A stretch of DNA of 33,947 bases from Sebaldella sp. (GCA_018058425.1 JAGOZX010000029.1:1-33947); one strand, 5' to 3'. Shown: positions 6,695-24,461, counted from the first letter of the stretch. A program made the numbers and translations. Notes: a model not told the origin generated them from the letters alone.

Positions 6695-8296
6695 TTACTC
6701 TGATATACTCTTCTCATTTTTTCTATAATACTCACATAAATTTTCCGCACATCTTATTCCATCCACAGCAGCTGAAACTATTCCTCCAGCATATCCTGCA
6801 CCTTCACCACATGGTATTAATCCTATAATATTAGAAAACATATTCTCATCTCTTGTTATTTTTATAGGAGATGAACTTCTGCTTTCCACAGCTGTTATAA
6901 TGGAATCGCTACCCATAAAACCATTTATTTTTTTATCCATCTTTATGATTCCTTCTCGCAGTGACTCTGTGATAAAGTCTGGAAGACAGTCATTTAGATT
7001 ACTTAATTTATATCCAATACTATAACTTGGTATTACTTTTCCTATTGTTGTAGATTTTATATTATTTAAAAAATCTGAAACAAGCTGAACAGGAGCAATA
7101 TATTCACCACCACCTAGATCATAAGCTGCCTTTTCTAATTTTCTCTGAAACTCAACACCAGCAAGTACACTATCACTTCCAAAGTCTTTTGGTTCCACAT
7201 TTACTAAAACTGCTGAATTGGCATTGGGAAGACTTCTTTTATAATAGCTCATTCCATTTACAGCCAAATATCCATCTTCACTTGCAGCAGGTACAACAAC
7301 ACCTCCTGGACACATACAAAATGTATATACTCCTCTTCCATTTGAAACTTTTACATTTAGTTTATATTCAGCTGGTGGAAGTAAATCTGCAAATTTTCCA
7401 TACTGACTCTTATTAATCATTTTTTGGCTGTGCTCAATTCTAACTCCCACTGAAAAAGGTTTTTGTGTCATAGTAATTCCCTTGTCATTCAGCATATAGA
7501 AAGTATCTCTAGAACTGTGACCAATAGCTAGTATTAATGAATCTGTTTTTATTTCATAGTCTTCTTCTGGTGAGGAAACAAGTATACTCTCTAATTTATT
7601 ATTACTATGATTTACTGATGTAAGTTTATTTTGAAATCGATATTCGCCACCAAGGTCTTCTATATGCTTTCGAATATTTTTTAATATCTCTATTAGCCTG
7701 TCTGTTCCTAAGTGAGGTTTTGACATGTATCCAATCTCTTCATCTGCTCCAGCTCTTATCAGCTCATCTATAACTTTTTTTATCCTTACATTGTGTGTAT
7801 TTGTAGTTAACTTACCATCAGAAAATGTTCCTGCTCCGCCTTCACCAAACTGGACATTTGATTCCTTATTTAATATTCCAGTTTCAAAAAAATCATATAC
7901 GTCTTTTCTTCGTTCTTCTACCTTTTTACCTCTTTCAAGTATAATTGGACGAAGGCCGGCTTCTGCTAAAATCAGCGCTGAGAATAAACCAGCAGGTCCG
8001 CTTCCCACTACAATGGAACGAAGCTCTCTTGGTTTCTCAAATTTTTCAATAGAATATTTAAAATTCTCAATTAATTTAACATTTTTATATTCTAAAAATC
8101 TTTCCTCATTAACAATTCTAACATCTACAGAATAAACATAAAATATACTATTTTTATTTCTTGCATCTACTGACTGACCAGTTACTTTAAATTCTTCTAT
8201 TTCTTTCACATTTACATCTAATATTTCTGCTGCTTTTTCTTTTAATTCCTGAATATTATGTGAAATTGACATTTTAATATTATTTATTCTTAACAT
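6695..8296 (-). CDS. FAD-dependent dehydrogenase, COG2509 type
   Basis: The 533-residue protein has an N-terminal domain of about 90 residues that precedes the flavin fold, then VVGSGPAGLFSALILAEAG, a Rossmann GxGxxG site for FAD, and ILERGKKVEERRKDV. Motifs NVQFGEGGAGTFSDGKL, CMCPGG and, at the C-terminus, PCGEGAGYAGGIVSAAVDG are typical of the NAD(FAD)-utilising dehydrogenase group COG2509. The reaction and substrate of this group are not established. The ATG at 8294-8296 has AAGGAA upstream. The gene is flanked by another flavoprotein gene 26 bases upstream and ywbE downstream, so the three form an operon. Confidence 0.87.
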   Translation of the reverse strand: MLRINNIKMSISHNIQELKEKAAEILDVNVKEIEEFKVTGQSVDARNKNSIFYVYSVDVRIVNEERFLEYKNVKLIENFKYSIEKFEKPRELRSIVVGSGPAGLFSALILAEAGLRPIILERGKKVEERRKDVYDFFETGILNKESNVQFGEGGAGTFSDGKLTTNTHNVRIKKVIDELIRAGADEEIGYMSKPHLGTDRLIEILKNIRKHIEDLGGEYRFQNKLTSVNHSNNKLESILVSSPEEDYEIKTDSLILAIGHSSRDTFYMLNDKGITMTQKPFSVGVRIEHSQKMINKSQYGKFADLLPPAEYKLNVKVSNGRGVYTFCMCPGGVVVPAASEDGYLAVNGMSYYKRSLPNANSAVLVNVEPKDFGSDSVLAGVEFQRKLEKAAYDLGGGEYIAPVQLVSDFLNNIKSTTIGKVIPSYSIGYKLSNLNDCLPDFITESLREGIIKMDKKINGFMGSDSIITAVESRSSSPIKITRDENMFSNIIGLIPCGEGAGYAGGIVSAAVDGIRCAENLCEYYRKNEKSISE

Positions 8297-8322
8297 ATTT
8301 AGATTCCTTTACTATTAAATTT

Positions 8323-9546
8323 TCACTTCTTTTCAGAAGCACTCATTCCTGCTAAATATCCTGAAGCCCATGCCCATTGAAGATTATAACCTCCACAGTC
8401 ACCAAAAATATCTAATATTTCACCTGCTAAATAAAGTCCGCTTATTTTTTTTGATTCTAAAGTGTTACTGTCTACTTCATTTGTTAAAATTCCACCTGCT
8501 GTTACCTGGGCATTTTTAAATCCAGTAGTTTCAATAACTTTTATTTTATAAGACTTAATTAAATCAATAATTTTTTTTATATTATTATCACTCAAACTTC
8601 TTATAGGTAATGACAATTTTTCAATTCCTGAACGTTTAGATATTAGCTGTCCTAATTTTTTATTTAATGCGCCGTTAAAAAAGTTTTCCATGGTAAGGTG
8701 TGCTAAATTTGTTCTTCTTTCTTTAAACATCTCAAAAAGTGTATCATAATCATAGTTTGGCATAAAATCTATACTAAATACCAAGTTATCATAAAGAGCA
8801 GTTAGATAAGATAAATTAAAAATTACTGATCCAGAAATTCCATAGTCAGTGAATAAAAGTTCTCCATCACCTAATCCTACCTTCTCATCCTTATAAAAAA
8901 TACTTATCTCAGTATTAACTTTTATACCTTGTAATCCTTTTATAGGTTCCTTGTCAGTTTTCAGCTGTACAAGTGCTGGCTTTAAGTCTGTTATACTATG
9001 ACCTAAAGTTTTAGCCAGTTCAAAACCACTTCCATTTGAGCCAAGCTCTGGATAAGACTTTCCACCTGCGGTTAGTATAACTTTATCTGAAACAAAGCTT
9101 GCCCCATTATCTGAATATATTTTAAAGTCTTCTTTATTCTTTATTATTTTATTTACATTAAAATCTGTAAGTATTTCTATTCCCAATTCTTGGGCTTCAA
9201 GCCTTAATACATCTACCACAGAAGAAGCTTGTCCACTCAAGGGATAAACCTTTCCTTTTTCCTCTACATTATGGATTATTCCTAATTTTTCAAAAAATAC
9301 TATTGTATCATTTGGTGTAAATTTTCTTAGTATATTTACTGTAAATTCAGAATTTTTCCCATAATAGTTTGAAGTATCTGCATAAATATTTGTATAGTTG
9401 CATCTTCCATTTCCAGTAGCCAAAACTTTCTTTAATACCCTATCTTTTCTCTCTAGTATAGTTACACTTGCTCCATTTTTTGCAGATGTAATTGCCGCTA
9501 AAAATCCCGCAGCTCCTCCACCTATAACAGCTATTTTCTCTTGCAT
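8323..9546 (-). CDS. HI0933/YhiN/BaiN-family flavoprotein
   Basis: The 407-residue protein starts MQEKIAVIGGGAAGFLAAIT, an FAD-binding Rossmann motif, followed by LERKDRVLKKVLATGNGRCN, the signature of the HI0933 (YhiN) family. The C-terminus has GDCGGYNLQWAWASGYLAG, also typical. Family members are FAD proteins of uncertain role; a clostridial member is annotated BaiN and implicated in bile acid reduction, but this does not show that function here. The start codon has an AGGAGG 13 bases upstream. It is the first gene of a three-gene cluster with the COG2509 oxidoreductase and ywbE. Confidence 0.88.
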   Translation of the reverse strand: MQEKIAVIGGGAAGFLAAITSAKNGASVTILERKDRVLKKVLATGNGRCNYTNIYADTSNYYGKNSEFTVNILRKFTPNDTIVFFEKLGIIHNVEEKGKVYPLSGQASSVVDVLRLEAQELGIEILTDFNVNKIIKNKEDFKIYSDNGASFVSDKVILTAGGKSYPELGSNGSGFELAKTLGHSITDLKPALVQLKTDKEPIKGLQGIKVNTEISIFYKDEKVGLGDGELLFTDYGISGSVIFNLSYLTALYDNLVFSIDFMPNYDYDTLFEMFKERRTNLAHLTMENFFNGALNKKLGQLISKRSGIEKLSLPIRSLSDNNIKKIIDLIKSYKIKVIETTGFKNAQVTAGGILTNEVDSNTLESKKISGLYLAGEILDIFGDCGGYNLQWAWASGYLAGMSASEKK

Positions 9547-18377: not shown

Positions 18378-19463
18378 TCATCTTTTCTTTTGATAAATTT
18401 TTATAAACTTATCTCCGCCATCATAGTACTTGGCTGTTATCTTCATGATATCACTTTCATATTCAAAGGGCTGTCCTTTTTTTATACTAGATATACTGCT
18501 CCATAAAAAAAGAAAAGAGTTATCTACAATATATGCATTTGTTAAAATAAGTGATTTATACTGATTAAATGACTTCACATTATTTACAGAATAGATAAGA
18601 AGATAATTCTCATTATATTCTGACACTTTTTCCTCTATTTTACTTAAAAAGTATTCTTCAAAATTTTTCTCATTATTTCTTTTTTTCATATCATTTAATA
18701 TAACAGACAGACTTTCATAAGATACTGTATTTAAACAATAAAGAATCTTATGAAATAATAATTCATAATTTTTTATTTCACTAAAACTACCTAATATTAA
18801 GTTTATTTGATTTAGTTTATCTTCATTTATTGTAAAAAATTCCAAAGTGCTTATCTTACCATTTTGCTTGTTATTTCTTTTTATTTTATTATAAAAAAAC
18901 TTTTTATTTGATATCTGATTTATTTCATTTATTGATGGAAGCAGAACATATTTTTCAAAGTCATATAACCTATTATAGTTTGTCTTTAGATTCAGAGTAT
19001 CTTTTAATTCATTTATGCCTATTTTTATATAATTTAAGTTCTGTAACTTTGAAGCCAAAAAATTATATAAAATTATACTGTAAGAAAAACTAAATGAAAA
19101 AAACAGCGATAATTTTAGCTCATATAAATAATGCTCTGGCTTAAATGTATTCAAAAAATCACTTGAAAATTCAAACTCCACACTCTCATCATTTATAATT
19201 TTATATGAATTAGAAACTACAAAATTTCCCTTATACTCATTTTTTAATTCATCTATTATCTTATATTTTATTCTTATATTTAGAAAATCATCTAATATTT
19301 CTTCCAATTCATTGTTAGAGTATCTATTTATACAGCCTTTTATTTCCATTATATTAAAAAGGATCTTTTCTTTATTGTCAAAACTTTTATTATCAAGAAT
19401 AAATTTTAAGATTTTTTTATCAAAAAATTTTAAATCCTCTTTTAAATCTAAAAAATATATCAT
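18378..19463 (-). CDS. Rep_3-like replication initiator protein on the chromosome
   Basis: The 361-residue, Lys/Asn-rich protein shows the layout of plasmid initiators of the RepB/Rep_3 superfamily. Around residues 125-215 it has a winged-helix pattern, SYSIILYNFLASKLQ, then GINELKDTLNLKTNYNRLYDF, then VLLPSINEINQISNKKFFY and a GKISTLEFFTI strand, as in Rep_3 proteins (ELK..L.....Y..F....L.PAI.EIN). Sequence identity to any named Rep is not known to me. GAGGTG lies before the ATG. No ParA/ParB, relaxase or iteron array is present; only two 12-base iteron-like units sit upstream (19480-19502). It may be a domesticated or remnant plasmid gene. Confidence 0.55.
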   Translation of the reverse strand: MIYFLDLKEDLKFFDKKILKFILDNKSFDNKEKILFNIMEIKGCINRYSNNELEEILDDFLNIRIKYKIIDELKNEYKGNFVVSNSYKIINDESVEFEFSSDFLNTFKPEHYLYELKLSLFFSFSFSYSIILYNFLASKLQNLNYIKIGINELKDTLNLKTNYNRLYDFEKYVLLPSINEINQISNKKFFYNKIKRNNKQNGKISTLEFFTINEDKLNQINLILGSFSEIKNYELLFHKILYCLNTVSYESLSVILNDMKKRNNEKNFEEYFLSKIEEKVSEYNENYLLIYSVNNVKSFNQYKSLILTNAYIVDNSFLFLWSSISSIKKGQPFEYESDIMKITAKYYDGGDKFIKIYQKKR

Positions 19464-19479
19464 AATAAATCACCTCAAA

Positions 19480-19502
19480 TATACACGAATCTATACACCA
19501 AT
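19480..19502. repeat. Two 12-base direct repeats before the Rep-like gene
   Basis: TATACACGAATC is followed directly by TATACACCAAT, matching at 10 of 11 positions. They lie 17-39 bases upstream of the initiator-like gene, where an autorepressing Rep protein would bind. Two units are too few to call an origin. Confidence 0.4.
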
Positions 19503-19616
19503 TACTTCGTTCATTTTAATTATAGCTCATTTATGAAGTTTTTCAAGTTTAAAAATAAAAAAATAGACGAAATCATAAATTCAAGATATTGCTAAAAAGA
19601 AATAATGTATTACACT

Positions 19617-19622
19617 TATAAT
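19617..19622 (+). promoter_or_regulatory. -10 element of the PTS operon
   Basis: TATAAT lies 40 bases before the GTG start of the first EIIA gene. No strong -35 is seen at 17 bases (AAAAAG), so expression may depend on an activator. I did not find a clear catabolite-repression site. Confidence 0.4.
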
Positions 19623-19661
19623 ACTAGATCTGGTGATTATCTTTAAGAAGGGAGTTTATTT

Positions 19662-20102
19662 GTGAAACAAGAATTACTAAAAAAAGAATGTATTAAATTA
19701 AATGTAAATGCAAAGAACTGGGAAGATGCAATATCTATTGCAGGAAATCTTTTAGTCAATAATAACTTCATAAAAAAAGAGTATATCACTGCAATAATTG
19801 AAATGGTAAAAGAATTAGGCCCATATATTGTTATCACAGATGGAGTTGCTATTCCTCATGCAAGGCCTGAAGATGGTGTAATAAAATTGGGATACAGTCT
19901 AATAACTCTTGATCCTCCAATAAACTTTGGAAACCCTGATAATGATCCTGTAAAATTAATTGTTTGTATTGCTGCAATTGACAATAATTCGCATATTGAT
20001 CTTATCACAAAACTAGTTAATTTAATAAATAATGATAAATTAGCTGAAATAATAAATGCAAAAGCTATAGAAACAGTGTTGAAAATATTCAATGAGGACT
20101 AA
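19662..20102 (+). CDS. PTS EIIA component, ascorbate (Ula/Sga) type
   Basis: The 146-residue protein is a PTS_EIIA type-2 domain. The phospho-accepting histidine is His66 in VAIPHARPEDG, the HARP form common in UlaC-like proteins. It transfers phosphate from HPr to EIIB. The start is GTG with GGGAG eight bases upstream. It is the first gene of a six-gene operon in the order EIIA, kinase, EIIB, EIIC, TPR protein, aldolase. The substrate is not necessarily ascorbate, because no UlaD/E/F/G gene is present. Confidence 0.9.
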   Translation: MKQELLKKECIKLNVNAKNWEDAISIAGNLLVNNNFIKKEYITAIIEMVKELGPYIVITDGVAIPHARPEDGVIKLGYSLITLDPPINFGNPDNDPVKLIVCIAAIDNNSHIDLITKLVNLINNDKLAEIINAKAIETVLKIFNED

Positions 20103-20140
20103 CACTTATTAATCAAAATAAGAATAAAAGGAGGAGTAAA

Positions 20141-21133
20141 ATGAAAAATATTGCAGTAATAACAAGTGGAGGTGATGCACCGGGGATAAACTCTGTATTT
20201 TCAGGTATGCTTAATACTGCAAGAAATGTAAAAATTTGGGGGTACAACGGCGGCTTTGATGGAATCCTATCTAATATGCCAAAACTAATAAATAATCTTC
20301 ATACGGAGGAATTTGTGACTGACAGCAAGCTTCTTTTTCAAACTGCAAGAAGTAAAACTCCACAGATGAAAAATGGAATAGAAAAAATAGTAAATAAACT
20401 AAAAAAAGATAAGATGGATGCTTTGGTGGTTTGTGGTGGAGACGGCTCATCAAAAGCAGCTAAGCTAATTGATGACTTTGGTTTTCCAGTAATGGTAATC
20501 CCTATGACCATTGATAATGATATTGATGGTATTGACTACACAATTGGCCATGATTCTGTAATAAATAAAATAAAAGATATTATAAACGACCTTCATAAAA
20601 CCGCACATAATATGCCAAATCGAATATTCATGGTAGAAGTTTTTGGTGGAAATCATGGTTCTATAGCGTTATCTTCTGCTATAGCCTCTGGTTCTAACAT
20701 GGTATTTTTACCAGAATATAAATTAAATCTTGATAAGATATGTGATGAAATACAAAAACAAATAACACAGAAAGAATACTTGATAATTATATGTTCTGAG
20801 GGTGCTTATCTTTCTGATGAATATTCATCTGGTAATCAAGGAATTTCATTTGAAATAGGTAAATTAATAAGTGAAAAAATAAATGAAAGAATAAGATACA
20901 GTATTCTGGGATACTTTCAAAGAGGTGGTTCACCTAGTTCTTATGACAGTATCATTGGTACAAAGTCTGGTAATCTTGCTATTGATAGTCTTCTATCTGG
21001 CAAACATGGCTATATGATAGGAATAAAAAACAGTGATCTTAGTCTTATAAAATTAGACAAAATAAACCTTAAAAAGAAAGAACTAGATAAAGATTTAGTT
21101 TTAATAGCTAAAAATAAAAAAATATTAGTTTAG
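20141..21133 (+). CDS. Phosphofructokinase homologue with altered substrate pocket
   Basis: The 330-residue protein has the length and fold of PfkA: TSGGDAPGIN, the nucleotide loop GGDGS (99-103) of ATP-dependent enzymes, catalytic TIDND (123-127), and QRGGSP near the C-terminus. Several positions differ from Escherichia coli PfkA. The residue before TIDND is Met122 instead of Gly (Lys in PPi enzymes), the fructose-6-phosphate segment MGR is FGG (168-170), and the substrate His of GHIQRGG is Tyr258 (GYFQRGG). Arg equivalents 162, 243 and 252 seem kept. I infer an ATP-dependent kinase of another ketose phosphate supplied by the PTS. It lies between EIIA and EIIB, 9 bases before EIIB. Confidence 0.85.
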   Translation: MKNIAVITSGGDAPGINSVFSGMLNTARNVKIWGYNGGFDGILSNMPKLINNLHTEEFVTDSKLLFQTARSKTPQMKNGIEKIVNKLKKDKMDALVVCGGDGSSKAAKLIDDFGFPVMVIPMTIDNDIDGIDYTIGHDSVINKIKDIINDLHKTAHNMPNRIFMVEVFGGNHGSIALSSAIASGSNMVFLPEYKLNLDKICDEIQKQITQKEYLIIICSEGAYLSDEYSSGNQGISFEIGKLISEKINERIRYSILGYFQRGGSPSSYDSIIGTKSGNLAIDSLLSGKHGYMIGIKNSDLSLIKLDKINLKKKELDKDLVLIAKNKKILV

Positions 21134-21142
21134 GAGTGAAGT

Positions 21143-21439
21143 ATGAAAAAATTAGAGATTTTAATGGTTTGTGGTGCAGGCTTAGGAAGTAGTTTTGCAT
21201 GTGAAATGAGTGTAGAGGCAGTCATAAAGGATTTAGGGGTTGATGCTAACTTAAGTCATTGCGATATTTCATCTGCTCCATCCACTAAAGCAGATATCAT
21301 AGTAACTGGAAGTAATTTTGAATCACAGTTTTCAAATTATGAAATTAAATCCAAAATTATTTTTCTAAAAAAAATGGTTGATAAAAATGAAATTAGAGAA
21401 AAACTAGAGCCTGTATTAAAAGAGATGGGTGTATTATAA
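21143..21439 (+). CDS. PTS EIIB component, ascorbate (Ula/Sga) type
   Basis: The 98-residue protein has the phospho-cysteine Cys10 in the loop VCGAGLGSSFACEM, as in UlaB-type EIIB domains. It passes phosphate from EIIA to the sugar bound by EIIC. AGGAGTGAAGT lies before the ATG and EIIC starts 12 bases after its stop. Confidence 0.93.
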   Translation: MKKLEILMVCGAGLGSSFACEMSVEAVIKDLGVDANLSHCDISSAPSTKADIIVTGSNFESQFSNYEIKSKIIFLKKMVDKNEIREKLEPVLKEMGVL

Positions 21440-21451
21440 GGAGGTTATATA

Positions 21452-22720
21452 ATGGGAATTTTAAGATTTATTGTAAATGATATTCTTGGTCAGGCTTCTA
21501 TTTTAGTAGCTTTAATAGCAATGCTTGGATTAATAGCTCAAAAAAAGTCTATTGGACAAACTATAACAGGAAGTTTTAAGACTTTATTAGGATTTTTAGT
21601 TCTTATTGCTGGTTCAAGTATTATTGTGGGTACTCTTACCTTTTTAGGCGAAATTTTTCAAAAAGGATTTAATATGAGAGGTGTGGTTACAGATGTTGGT
21701 GCAATAGCTGGAATAGCTCAAAAAACCTTAGGTAAGGAAACTGCATTAATCATGGTTCTAGCATTTTTTATAAATATACTTGTTGCAAGATTTACCAAAT
21801 TCAAGTATATATTTCTAACTGGTCAGGCTTCACTATGGATGGCAACTGTTTGTTCAGTTGTTGGTTATATGGGAGGATTACGAGGTCTGCCGTTAATACT
21901 AATGGGTGGAATCATTGCGGGACTTATGGCAGTATTAATGCCCGCTATAGCACAGCCTGTTGTTAGAAAAATAACAGAATCCGATGACATTGCACTAGGG
22001 CATTATTGTACAATTGGATACTTATTTGAAGCTGGAATTGCAAAATTAGTGGGTAATAAAGAACACAGCACAGAGGATTTAAAACTCCCAAAAAGTTTTG
22101 AATTTTTACAAGATACTTATTTATCTATGATGGTTGTTATGATTCCTATCTATTTAATTCCTGCTATTGTAGCAGGACCGCAAGTAATAGCTGTCCATGC
22201 TGGTAATATGAATTATTTAGTATATTCATTTTTACAAGCAGTACAATTCGTAGTGGGAGTTTATGTTCTACTTTCTGGAGTAAGACTTTTATTAGCCGAA
22301 ATAGTTCCTGCTTTTAGAGGAATTGCAATGAAAATAGTTCCAGATGCCATTCCGGCACTTGATTGTCCTGTTTTATTCCCATATGCTCCAAACGCTGTAA
22401 TTATAGGTTTTATCACTACAACTATTGGTTCAGTACTTGGAATGTTTATTTTACCACTATTTGGCCTTGCCATTATTTTACCAGGAATGCTTACGAACTT
22501 TTTTGCTGGTGGTACAGCTGGTATCTTTGGAAATGCTGTTGGTGGTAGAAGAGGGGCCATAATTGGCGGTATTGCTCATGGATTCTTTATTACATTACTA
22601 CCTGCATTATTACTTCCACTTTTAGGAAGCTTTGGCTTTGAAAACGTTACATTTAGTGACTCTGATGTTATTAGTGTTGGATTAGTTTTCGGTCATATCC
22701 TAAAATTCATCTTCCCATAG
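21452..22720 (+). CDS. PTS EIIC permease, ascorbate (UlaA/SgaT) family
   Basis: The 422-residue protein is a polytopic membrane permease of the UlaA/SgaT family, part of the ascorbate-galactitol PTS superfamily. It begins MGILRFIVNDILGQASILVA and has about ten or eleven hydrophobic segments. Family motifs include LLGFLVLIAGSSIIVG, VARFTKFKYIFLTGQ, the FRGIAMKIVPDAIPALDCP region and FAGGTAGIFGNAVGGRRGA. It binds and translocates the sugar during phosphorylation. AAGGAGG lies before the ATG. The substrate cannot be read from the sequence; related permeases carry ascorbate and other sugars. Confidence 0.92.
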   Translation: MGILRFIVNDILGQASILVALIAMLGLIAQKKSIGQTITGSFKTLLGFLVLIAGSSIIVGTLTFLGEIFQKGFNMRGVVTDVGAIAGIAQKTLGKETALIMVLAFFINILVARFTKFKYIFLTGQASLWMATVCSVVGYMGGLRGLPLILMGGIIAGLMAVLMPAIAQPVVRKITESDDIALGHYCTIGYLFEAGIAKLVGNKEHSTEDLKLPKSFEFLQDTYLSMMVVMIPIYLIPAIVAGPQVIAVHAGNMNYLVYSFLQAVQFVVGVYVLLSGVRLLLAEIVPAFRGIAMKIVPDAIPALDCPVLFPYAPNAVIIGFITTTIGSVLGMFILPLFGLAIILPGMLTNFFAGGTAGIFGNAVGGRRGAIIGGIAHGFFITLLPALLLPLLGSFGFENVTFSDSDVISVGLVFGHILKFIFP

Positions 22721-22735
22721 AAATAGGTGAATAAT

Positions 22736-23122
22736 ATGAATTTAAAAAACCTTTTTAAGAAAAAAGAGAATTTATCTAATACAAAAATTATAGATATAGA
22801 GAGTATTAAAAATGAGATTTCTGAGTTAGAAAAGGAATTAGATAATAATATATCAAATATAGATAAAGCTGAACTTCTAAATAAGCTTGGAATATTTAAT
22901 TTAGAAATTGGAAACATTGATAAGTCAATTGATTATTTTGAACAATGTCTGGAAATTGATAGAACCATGATGTCTCCACAGACTAAGTTAATGAAGGCTT
23001 ATAATATAAAAAGAAAAGAATCTGTAGAAAATAAAAATCCAGAGTTATCTGATATTTATATGAAAAAAATAGATGATCTAATGGCTCTCTCGAAAGATGC
23101 TATTAGATATGGAAAAAAATAA
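22736..23122 (+). CDS. Small TPR-like protein in the PTS operon
   Basis: The 128-residue cytosolic protein begins with a basic/coiled-coil stretch (MNLKNLFKKKENL, then Lys/Glu-rich) and has one clear TPR-like helix pair at about residues 45-78 (AELLNKLGIFNLEIGNIDKSIDYFEQCLEID). The ATG at 22736 has AGGTGA seven bases upstream; the GTG three codons earlier overlaps this site. It lies 15 bases after EIIC and 20 before the aldolase, so it belongs to the operon. Its role is unknown; a protein-interaction role is plausible from TPR proteins in general. Confidence 0.7.
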   Translation: MNLKNLFKKKENLSNTKIIDIESIKNEISELEKELDNNISNIDKAELLNKLGIFNLEIGNIDKSIDYFEQCLEIDRTMMSPQTKLMKAYNIKRKESVENKNPELSDIYMKKIDDLMALSKDAIRYGKK

Positions 23123-23142
23123 TTTTAAAGAAGGTGAAAATT

Positions 23143-23991
23143 TTGTACGTAAATTCAAATGAAATATTAAAAAATGCAAAATTAAATAAATATGGTATAG
23201 GAGCATTTAATGTACACTGTTTAGAAATGCTTCCTTCAATGGTAAAGTCAGGAATCATAAAAAATGCACCTGTTATACTCCAAATTTCAAATGGTACTGC
23301 TGAATATATTGGTATGAAATTATTAGTTAATAGTATGAAAACTTTAGTAGAAGATACTAATTTACCATTTGTACTTCATCTAGATCATACAAAAGATTTT
23401 GAGATGATTAAAAAAGCAATTGATGCAGGTTTTACTTCTGTTATGATCGATGGTTCCAGCCTAAGTCTTAGTGAAAATATAGAACTTACAAAAAGAGTAG
23501 TTGAGTATGCACATTCAAAAAATGTAAGTGTTGAAGGTGAATTAGGTACCATTGGAGGAACTGAGGAGGGAATCAGCGTTCACGAAGATGACATAATGTA
23601 TACAAGACCTGAAGATGCACAAAAATTTTTAAAAGAGACAAACGTTGATGCGCTTGCTATAGCAATTGGAACATCACATGGACAGTATAAGTCCAAAGCT
23701 AAATTAAATTTTGAAGTTTTAAAAAAAATAAATGAAATTTCAGATAAACCACTTGTTTTACATGGTGGCACTGGAGTCTCAGATGTTGATATAAAAACGT
23801 GTATTACGAATGGAATTTCAAAAATAAATGTTGGAACTGAAGTTAATATTGCATGGATTCGAGAAGCAAAAATACAGTTTGAAAAATCAAAACTAGAAGA
23901 TTCTCTTAGAGATATCATCATTCCTTGTAATAACAAAGTAGAGGATGTATTAATAAATAAGATCACATTATTTGAAAGTAGAGTGGGGTAA
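23143..23991 (+). CDS. Class II ketose-bisphosphate aldolase, GatY/KbaY-like
   Basis: The 282-residue protein is a zinc-dependent class II aldolase. It shows GAFNVH, the catalytic and zinc residues in HLDH (79-82), EGELGTIGG, GTSHG with His179, and LHGGTGVS with His207. The GTSHGQYKSKAKLNF segment is like the GT(A/S)HG.YK...KL(D/N)F motif of GatY/KbaY tagatose-1,6-bisphosphate aldolases. It splits a ketohexose bisphosphate into two trioses. The start is TTG at 23143, six bases after AAGGTGA; the frame's GTG at 23134 lies inside that site. It is the last gene of the PTS operon, so it probably acts on the product of the altered kinase. Confidence 0.88.
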   Translation: MYVNSNEILKNAKLNKYGIGAFNVHCLEMLPSMVKSGIIKNAPVILQISNGTAEYIGMKLLVNSMKTLVEDTNLPFVLHLDHTKDFEMIKKAIDAGFTSVMIDGSSLSLSENIELTKRVVEYAHSKNVSVEGELGTIGGTEEGISVHEDDIMYTRPEDAQKFLKETNVDALAIAIGTSHGQYKSKAKLNFEVLKKINEISDKPLVLHGGTGVSDVDIKTCITNGISKINVGTEVNIAWIREAKIQFEKSKLEDSLRDIIIPCNNKVEDVLINKITLFESRVG

Positions 23992-24068: not shown

Positions 24069-24117
24069 AAATAGACCTTTTTTTAATCAAAAAGATTGAA
24101 AATTCTAGGTCTATTTT
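24069..24117. terminator. Terminator of the PTS operon (can act on both strands)
   Basis: AAATAGACCT and AGGTCTATTT form the stem, with a partly paired 25-base loop and T-rich sequence on both sides. On the plus strand it ends the aldolase transcript; on the minus strand it would end the putative RNA at 24118-24257. Confidence 0.7.
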
Positions 24118-24257
24118 TGTGATATGCAATTTTTTTGCCCATAAGGGCGAGGAATACTCTAGTAGAGTACACGGCATACTAACACAAAGGCTATTATTAC
24201 ACATATACGTAACATCTGTATTCCTCCAAATTGAATGATATTGGCTCGCGAAAGCCA
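24118..24257 (-). ncRNA. Putative structured RNA behind the PTS operon
   Basis: No convincing protein is encoded here, but the pairing is dense. CAATTT (24127-24132) pairs with AAATTG (24228-24233). GAGGAATAC (24149-24157) pairs perfectly with GTATTCCTC (24218-24226). GCCC-ATAA-GGGC (24137-24148) and GGCT-CGCGAA-AGCC (24243-24256) form hairpins. TACTCT (24155-24160) with AGAGTA (24164-24169) offers a competing hairpin. On the minus strand an extended -10, TGATATAAT (24264-24272), sits just upstream and a terminator follows at 24069-24117, so an RNA of about 190 nt is likely. I cannot match it to a known family; 6S-like RNA is one possibility. Confidence 0.45.
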
Positions 24258-24263
24258 TAAATA

Positions 24264-24272
24264 ATTATATCA
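24264..24272 (-). promoter_or_regulatory. Extended -10 promoter of the putative RNA
   Basis: The minus strand reads TGATATAAT, a perfect extended -10. Transcription would start near 24257, at the edge of the GGCT...AGCC hairpin. Confidence 0.45.
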
Positions 24273-24283
24273 AATGAAAATTA

Positions 24284-24316
24284 AAAAAGCTAGAAAATAC
24301 ATATCTAGCTTTTTTT
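24284..24316. terminator. Terminator downstream of the orphan EIIA gene
   Basis: AAAAAAGCTAG and CTAGCTTTTTT form an 11-base perfect stem with an 11-base loop and T runs on both strands. It can end minus-strand transcripts from the EIIA gene at 24462 before the RNA promoter begins. Bases 24317-24461 are AT-rich and show no gene. Confidence 0.8.
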
Positions 24317-24461
24317 CGCGATTTATAACATTCAATTTGTTTTATGCATATATTATACCATATTTATCAAAAAATGCAATTTGTTTATAACTGATTTTTT
24401 TATTAAATCATTCACTAATTTCTTTTCCACCAGTCTTAATTATTATAAATAAAGATTTTTA

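Follow-up and report, generated by a model that had tools for sequence, protein, structure and literature searches.

The window analysed here, a stretch of 33,947 nucleotides from Sebaldella sp., harbors at positions 19617-23991 a six-gene operon encoding the EIIA, EIIB and EIIC components of a Ula-type PTS transporter, a phosphofructokinase (PFK), a small TPR-like protein and an aldolase (Table 1). The six genes listed by the initial annotation are indeed all full-length, lie on one strand with gaps of 6-38 bp, and match their respective Pfam families, the TPR protein weakly; the gene of the latter has another in-frame ATG at 22736. The inverted repeat downstream of the aldolase gene, a possible terminator that was read by eye, is absent from the list of the automatic terminator scan. 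Rfam gave zero matches in the window. On the 3' side of the operon, a repeat-rich intergenic stretch (24120-24460) contains several small ORFs and hairpin-like sequence. On the 5' side, the operon region probably starts upstream of the limit first reported, and the divergent gene at 18378-19463 seems to be part of it.

Table 1. Features of the operon region in window coordinates
Feature	Position	Strand	Match or basis
Rep3/RepE-like two-winged-helix protein with C-terminal extension, 361 aa	18378-19463	-	PF21205, 1.5e-8
Divergent intergenic region with candidate operator elements TACACGAA and TAGACGAA	19464-19661		
EIIA, PTS_EIIA_2 family, 146 aa, GTG start	19662-20102	+	Pfam PF00359, 1.2e-36
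PfkA-family ATP-type sugar-phosphate kinase, 330 aa	20141-21133	+	Pfam PF00365 (PFK), 6e-74
EIIB, 98 aa	21143-21439	+	Pfam PF02302 (PTS_IIB), 5e-13
EIIC, EIIC-GAT family, non-ascorbate clade, 422 aa	21452-22720	+	Pfam PF03611, 2e-130
Small TPR-like protein	22727-23122	+	TPR_8, 2e-5, slightly under gathering score
Class II ketose-bisphosphate aldolase, operon-specific clade, 285 aa	23134-23991	+	Pfam PF01116 (F_bP_aldolase), 1e-94
Inverted repeat with T-rich arm, possible terminator	24078-24122	+	Read by eye

Transporter, kinase and aldolase of the operon

The operon shares the EIIA, EIIB and EIIC families with the Escherichia coli Ula system (UlaABC and UlaDEFG), but possesses a kinase and an aldolase instead of UlaD/E/F/G. 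The EIIC passes the NCBIfam model NF009551 (PRK12997.1-3), which carries no named substrate, with 735.7 bits against a cut-off of 657, and the cut-offs of the UlaABC equivalogs NF007094, NF007694 and NF007586 were not reached. Its nearest solved structure is UlaA, at 29% sequence identity. Comparison with the list of ascorbate-contacting residues of UlaA (PMC6048161) revealed that T86, Y87, H135, Q139 and Q195 are replaced by V/I, G/A/E, Q, W and F/Y, respectively, in the whole clade of operon EIICs; H194 and D314 are retained. Because most of the ascorbate contacts are lost, the EIIC is unlikely to be an ascorbate permease, and the window holds no homologue of UlaD, UlaE, UlaF or UlaG. On these two grounds ascorbate was rejected as the substrate, in agreement with the initial annotation. 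In the phylogenetic tree, the EIICs of all mapped operons form one clade (support 100/100) separate from the other sampled Ula-type EIICs, in which the nearest relatives of the window EIIC come from two operons of type D (see below).

The PFK has the fold, the GGDGS motif and the catalytic residues of the PfkA 6-phosphofructokinases, but differs at the substrate site. In E. coli PfkA numbering, it retains D127, D129, R162, E222, R243 and R252, which together with GGDGS comprise the catalytic positions and the majority of the substrate-phosphate positions, whereas Met169, Arg171 and His249 are changed to F, G and Y, respectively; the PFKs of the Enterobacterales operons have L, G/A and Y/F at these positions (roles of D127, D129, R162 and H249 after PMC10339645). 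Met169 and Arg171 are invariant in the other PFKs examined (35/35), and His249 is found in all but one of them. The description of an altered phosphofructokinase thus holds at the residue level: the ATP-type GGDGS and the catalytic Asp127 and Asp129 are present, but the full set of fructose 6-phosphate site residues is not. The enzyme passes the subfamily model of ATP-dependent 6-phosphofructokinases NF002872 (262.7 against 253 bits), but stays below the cut-off of the PfkA equivalog TIGR02482 (218.2 against 371.35 bits).

In the phylogenetic analysis, the PFKs of the window and of the Enterobacterales operons grouped together, apart from all others (support 100/99, on long branches), and a recent duplication of pfkA within Leptotrichiaceae was rejected by a tree test (p 0.007). 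The substrate-site changes common to the two operon groups may reflect common descent or parallel change. Other PFKs of the phylum share at most 42% identity with the window enzyme, and those examined in detail bear the housekeeping signature. The housekeeping PFK of the window's own genome is located on contig C63. The same genome encodes a second non-operon PFK on contig C81 (L002; 386 aa), which has a GGDGT motif and a Tyr at the His249 position, and groups with an Omnitrophota enzyme.

The aldolase had been described as GatY/KbaY-like. However, the operon class II aldolases form a clade of their own, a joint clade with GatY/KbaY being rejected (p 0.002), and the window enzyme scores 259 bits against the 443.55 bits of TIGR01858, below the cut-off; membership in GatY/KbaY was accordingly dropped. 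These aldolases carry an HGGTG motif, as seen in fructose-bisphosphate aldolases. The GatYZABC and KbaYZ systems resemble the operon in combining the same PTS superfamily with a class II ketose-bisphosphate aldolase; they differ in the clade of the aldolase, in GatZ and a dehydrogenase, for which the window has no homologue, and in the kinase, which is PfkA-type in the window rather than PfkB-type. Further class II aldolases are encoded elsewhere in the window's genome.

Operon variants and their distribution

The transporter clade recurs in Lonsdalea, Sodalis, Klebsiella, Enterococcus and two other Leptotrichiaceae, always together with a ketose-(bis)phosphate aldolase and usually with the small TPR-like protein. 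Of 395 sampled genomes of the order to which Lonsdalea belongs, 25 encode EIIC relatives of 64-80% identity, and the Leptotrichiaceae G077 and G084 possess EIICs of 63-65% identity with a matching aldolase, but without a PFK. The EIIC proved a better search marker than the PFK, which gave only four loci in a scan of genome contigs and, apart from Sodalis, mostly housekeeping-type enzymes in a plasmid search.

The genes are arranged in several ways. The window operon reads EIIA-PFK-EIIB-EIIC-TPR-class II aldolase and lacks the P-loop kinase. Type A is PFK-EIIB-EIIC-class II aldolase-small protein-EIIA-P-loop kinase, and type B is PFK-EIIB-EIIC-small protein-EIIA-P-loop kinase-LacD-like class I aldolase. 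The two remaining types have no PFK: type C is EIIA-EIIB-EIIC-TPR-class II aldolase-P-loop kinase, where Enterococcus has a fusion of EIIA and a PRD regulator, and type D is LacD-like aldolase-P-loop kinase-EIIA-EIIB-EIIC-TPR. The PFK is present in the window and Enterobacterales operons, many relatives being without it. Inside the mapped variants, neither an isomerase nor a dehydrogenase was found. The initial annotation had made its case depend on a gene order shared beyond this strain: the module does recur, but the exact order was seen only here, the relatives showing at least four other arrangements.

The aldolase thus changes class between variants, being class II in types A and C and the window, and class I in types B and D. 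The class I enzymes belong to Pfam DeoC/LacD, and their best NCBIfam match, tagatose 1,6-diphosphate aldolase, remains under its cut-off. That aldolases of unrelated mechanism are swapped around one EIIC clade points to the same reaction, namely the cleavage of a ketose (bis)phosphate.

A small AAA_33-like P-loop kinase is present in every mapped operon except that of the window (L035, L051-L053 and L083-L106), and zero matches to it were found in the window's genome, an 87% complete assembly searched without a positive control. The two groups of this kinase are related by profile (95%), and the nearest solved structure is 2RHM, a "putative kinase" (E 1e-6); a structure model was too poor for use (pLDDT 56). 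Its substrate may be the ketose phosphate, one of the cleavage products or another compound. The small TPR-like protein is kept in most relatives; the small protein was not found in one type A locus (L093), nor the TPR protein in G084. Profile comparisons linked the small proteins of type C to those of type D and the window (98%) and those of types A/B to type C (96%), whereas types A/B and type D plus the window gave little signal when compared directly (14%).

The Klebsiella version had no match among E. coli complete genomes in a blastn search. In the Klebsiella pneumoniae record CP125156.1 (L051), the operon PFK and aldolase are split between frames and unannotated (7685-8661), which may be a sequencing error or decay. 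Three congeneric genomes possess the genes on either side of the operon, with a DNA identity of 72-75%. In the congeners G089 and G090, the uridine kinase side (window to ~18316) meets the fructose-type EIIA (window from ~24526) within 0.5-1.2 kb, and the ~6.2 kb window segment comprising the operon and the gene at 18378-19463 is missing. The operon is accessory within the genus. Altogether, it is a real, conserved and uncharacterised PTS module, a variant of the known PTS-kinase-aldolase kind; no function has been described for this operon family in the literature searched.

The divergent Rep3-like gene and its intergenic region

The product of the gene at 18378-19463 matches the second winged helix of Rep3 initiators (PF21205), and when a profile was built from twelve members of its family, both winged helices aligned with the RepE-type initiator of 1REP (E 2e-7). 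The family alignment also contains a conserved C-terminal extension of ~150 residues. Compared to the RepE/Rep3 plasmid initiators, with which it has two winged helices in common, the family is chromosomal, is found beside sugar and other catabolic operons, and possesses this extension. A structure model of the protein was too poor for use (pLDDT 33).

At each of the 11 other Fusobacteriota loci mapped (L169-L179), the homologue is oriented divergently from a PTS or other catabolic operon. The closest relatives, one in the same genome (L169, contig C21, 11000-24000) and one in each of two congeners (L170 and L171), are transcribed divergently from another PTS operon of the Ula type, which includes genes of the phosphotriesterase and creatininase families and SIS-domain genes. 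More distant relatives are divergent from other catabolic operons: a mannose-type PTS with a KDGP aldolase and a SelA-like enzyme, a mannose-type PTS with nagA on the opposite side, a fructose-type PTS with a mannosidase, a lactose-type PTS with a 6-phospho-glucosidase, and an amidohydrolase with the glycine-rich SFCGS family; the mannosidase, the glucosidase and some of the PTS names at these loci were assigned by eye.

The intergenic DNA flanking these genes is enriched in GACGAA, with 13 copies in 3,751 bp, whereas the intergenic DNA elsewhere in these loci has one in 13,516 bp, the counts being not independent because some loci are orthologous. In the window, TACACGAA (19482-19489) and TAGACGAA (19564-19571, the sole exact copy in 34 kb) lie 82 bp apart, and TAGACGAA-like elements recur at 82-84 bp in four intergenic regions, the window included.

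Given its fold as a plasmid initiator, and its location together with the operon in a segment absent from two congeners, the gene could be the remnant of an integrated plasmid unrelated to the operon. We consider this doubtful: neither the divergent placement at 11/11 other loci nor the enrichment of GACGAA would fit a remnant, and next to the gene a single tandem 11-mer pair was found instead of an iteron array. Such a pair is equalled in 3.5% of shuffles, and the gene has chromosomal flanks. The motif enrichment and gene placement argue instead, with moderate confidence, that the Rep3-like protein is probably a regulator of the window operon, which would exert its control through the ACGAA-type candidate sites between the two genes. 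It is possibly a new type of regulator, and the literature searched holds no description of such a family.

Proposed pathway, substrate and alternatives

From gene content, conservation, residue patterns and trees, we infer that the operon probably serves as a dedicated route for a D-ketohexose, by PTS uptake, a second phosphorylation and cleavage into trioses. EIIA, EIIB and EIIC would take up and phosphorylate the sugar, most likely at position C6 by analogy with the Ula system and ascorbate; ATP-dependent phosphorylation of C1 by the PfkA-family kinase would follow, and cleavage of the resulting ketose 1,6-bisphosphate by the class II aldolase would yield dihydroxyacetone phosphate and glyceraldehyde 3-phosphate. 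A role for the TPR-like protein in this route is conceivable. The gene content agrees with the sequence of transporter, kinase and aldolase without isomerase that the initial annotation had put forward. The product of the Ula system is ascorbate 6-phosphate (PMC6048161), which fits a ketose 6-phosphate product with a downstream kinase.

The kinase step is the weak point of the proposed route, because the PFK is absent from types C and D, and is found alongside the P-loop kinase in types A and B. It could thus be envisaged that the PTS makes a ketose 1-phosphate, which the aldolase cleaves into dihydroxyacetone phosphate and an aldehyde, the latter being phosphorylated by the P-loop kinase with the PFK as an accessory. 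Types C and D, with their P-loop kinase and no PFK, would suit this scheme, and ketose 1-phosphates are known to be substrates of both LacD-like and class II aldolases (YihT and YdjI, K-12 annotation). We regard it as unlikely, as the P-loop kinase had no match in the window's 87% complete genome (again without a positive control), and the PFK keeps the arginines that bind the 6-phosphate and the base for the 1-hydroxyl.

It is rather improbable that the PFK is an ordinary fructose 6-phosphate kinase and that the operon serves simply to enhance the glycolysis of fructose taken up as fructose 6-phosphate, although the enzyme passes NF002872 with intact catalytic residues: its TIGR02482 score is far under the cut-off, both operon groups carry three replacements at the substrate site, and with a housekeeping PFK and further class II aldolases encoded in the genome, fructose 6-phosphate would need neither gene. 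Still more improbable is a ketoheptose substrate, from which the PFK would make a heptulose 1,7-bisphosphate for cleavage by the aldolase. PPi-dependent PFKs with activity on sedoheptulose 7-phosphate likewise have a Tyr at the His249 position (PMC10339645); however, those enzymes have also changed Arg162, which the window PFK retains, and the same Tyr in the L002 PFK of this genome means that it is not diagnostic.

Under the proposed D-ketohexose route, D-tagatose is the favoured substrate, held at somewhat below even confidence. LacD-type and GatY-type enzymes both belong to tagatose routes, which favours this sugar, whereas the placement of the operon class II aldolases outside the GatY/KbaY clade and their HGGTG motif disfavour it. 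Another sugar, such as a heptulose, is less likely; D-psicose appears unlikely and D-sorbose more so. The LacC/LacD route likewise uses a ketose 6-phosphate kinase followed by an aldolase, and LacD-like aldolases occur in types B and D; LacC, however, is a PfkB-family kinase, and the window aldolase is class II. The similarity of LacC to PfkB kinases is noted in PMC7867265, which also reports that PfkA of Mycobacterium tuberculosis phosphorylates tagatose 6-phosphate; a PfkA-type tagatose 6-phosphate kinase is therefore chemically possible. The psicose locus of K. pneumoniae is likewise a catabolic locus for a rare ketohexose, but was rejected as the same system for its different gene set, a permease, a ribokinase-like kinase and an allulose-6-phosphate 3-epimerase, with neither a Ula-type PTS nor a PFK (PMC6020474). 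Sulfofructose chemistry was also rejected: the mapped operons contain no sulfosugar genes, and the PTS step would be superfluous.

If the sugar of this operon were identified, many entries labelled only generically as "PTS sugar transporter" or "6-phosphofructokinase" could be corrected, and it would become apparent how a kinase of textbook glycolysis comes to act on another sugar. The chemistry lends itself to direct tests, since class II and class I aldolases replace one another beside the same transporter. Carriers are found in Enterococcus, in a K. pneumoniae record, among Enterobacterales associated with plants and insects, and among anaerobes. Tentatively, and with slightly less than even confidence, we propose that RepE/Rep3-derived regulators with an added C-terminal domain control PTS and other catabolic operons across Fusobacteriota through a conserved GACGAA operator, the operon of the window being a ketose pathway whose PfkA-type kinase would be re-purposed for a non-fructose ketose 6-phosphate. 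If the Rep3-like proteins do act as regulators, a protein of plasmid replication was converted into the switch of a sugar operon and later came to be used at many operons of a single phylum.
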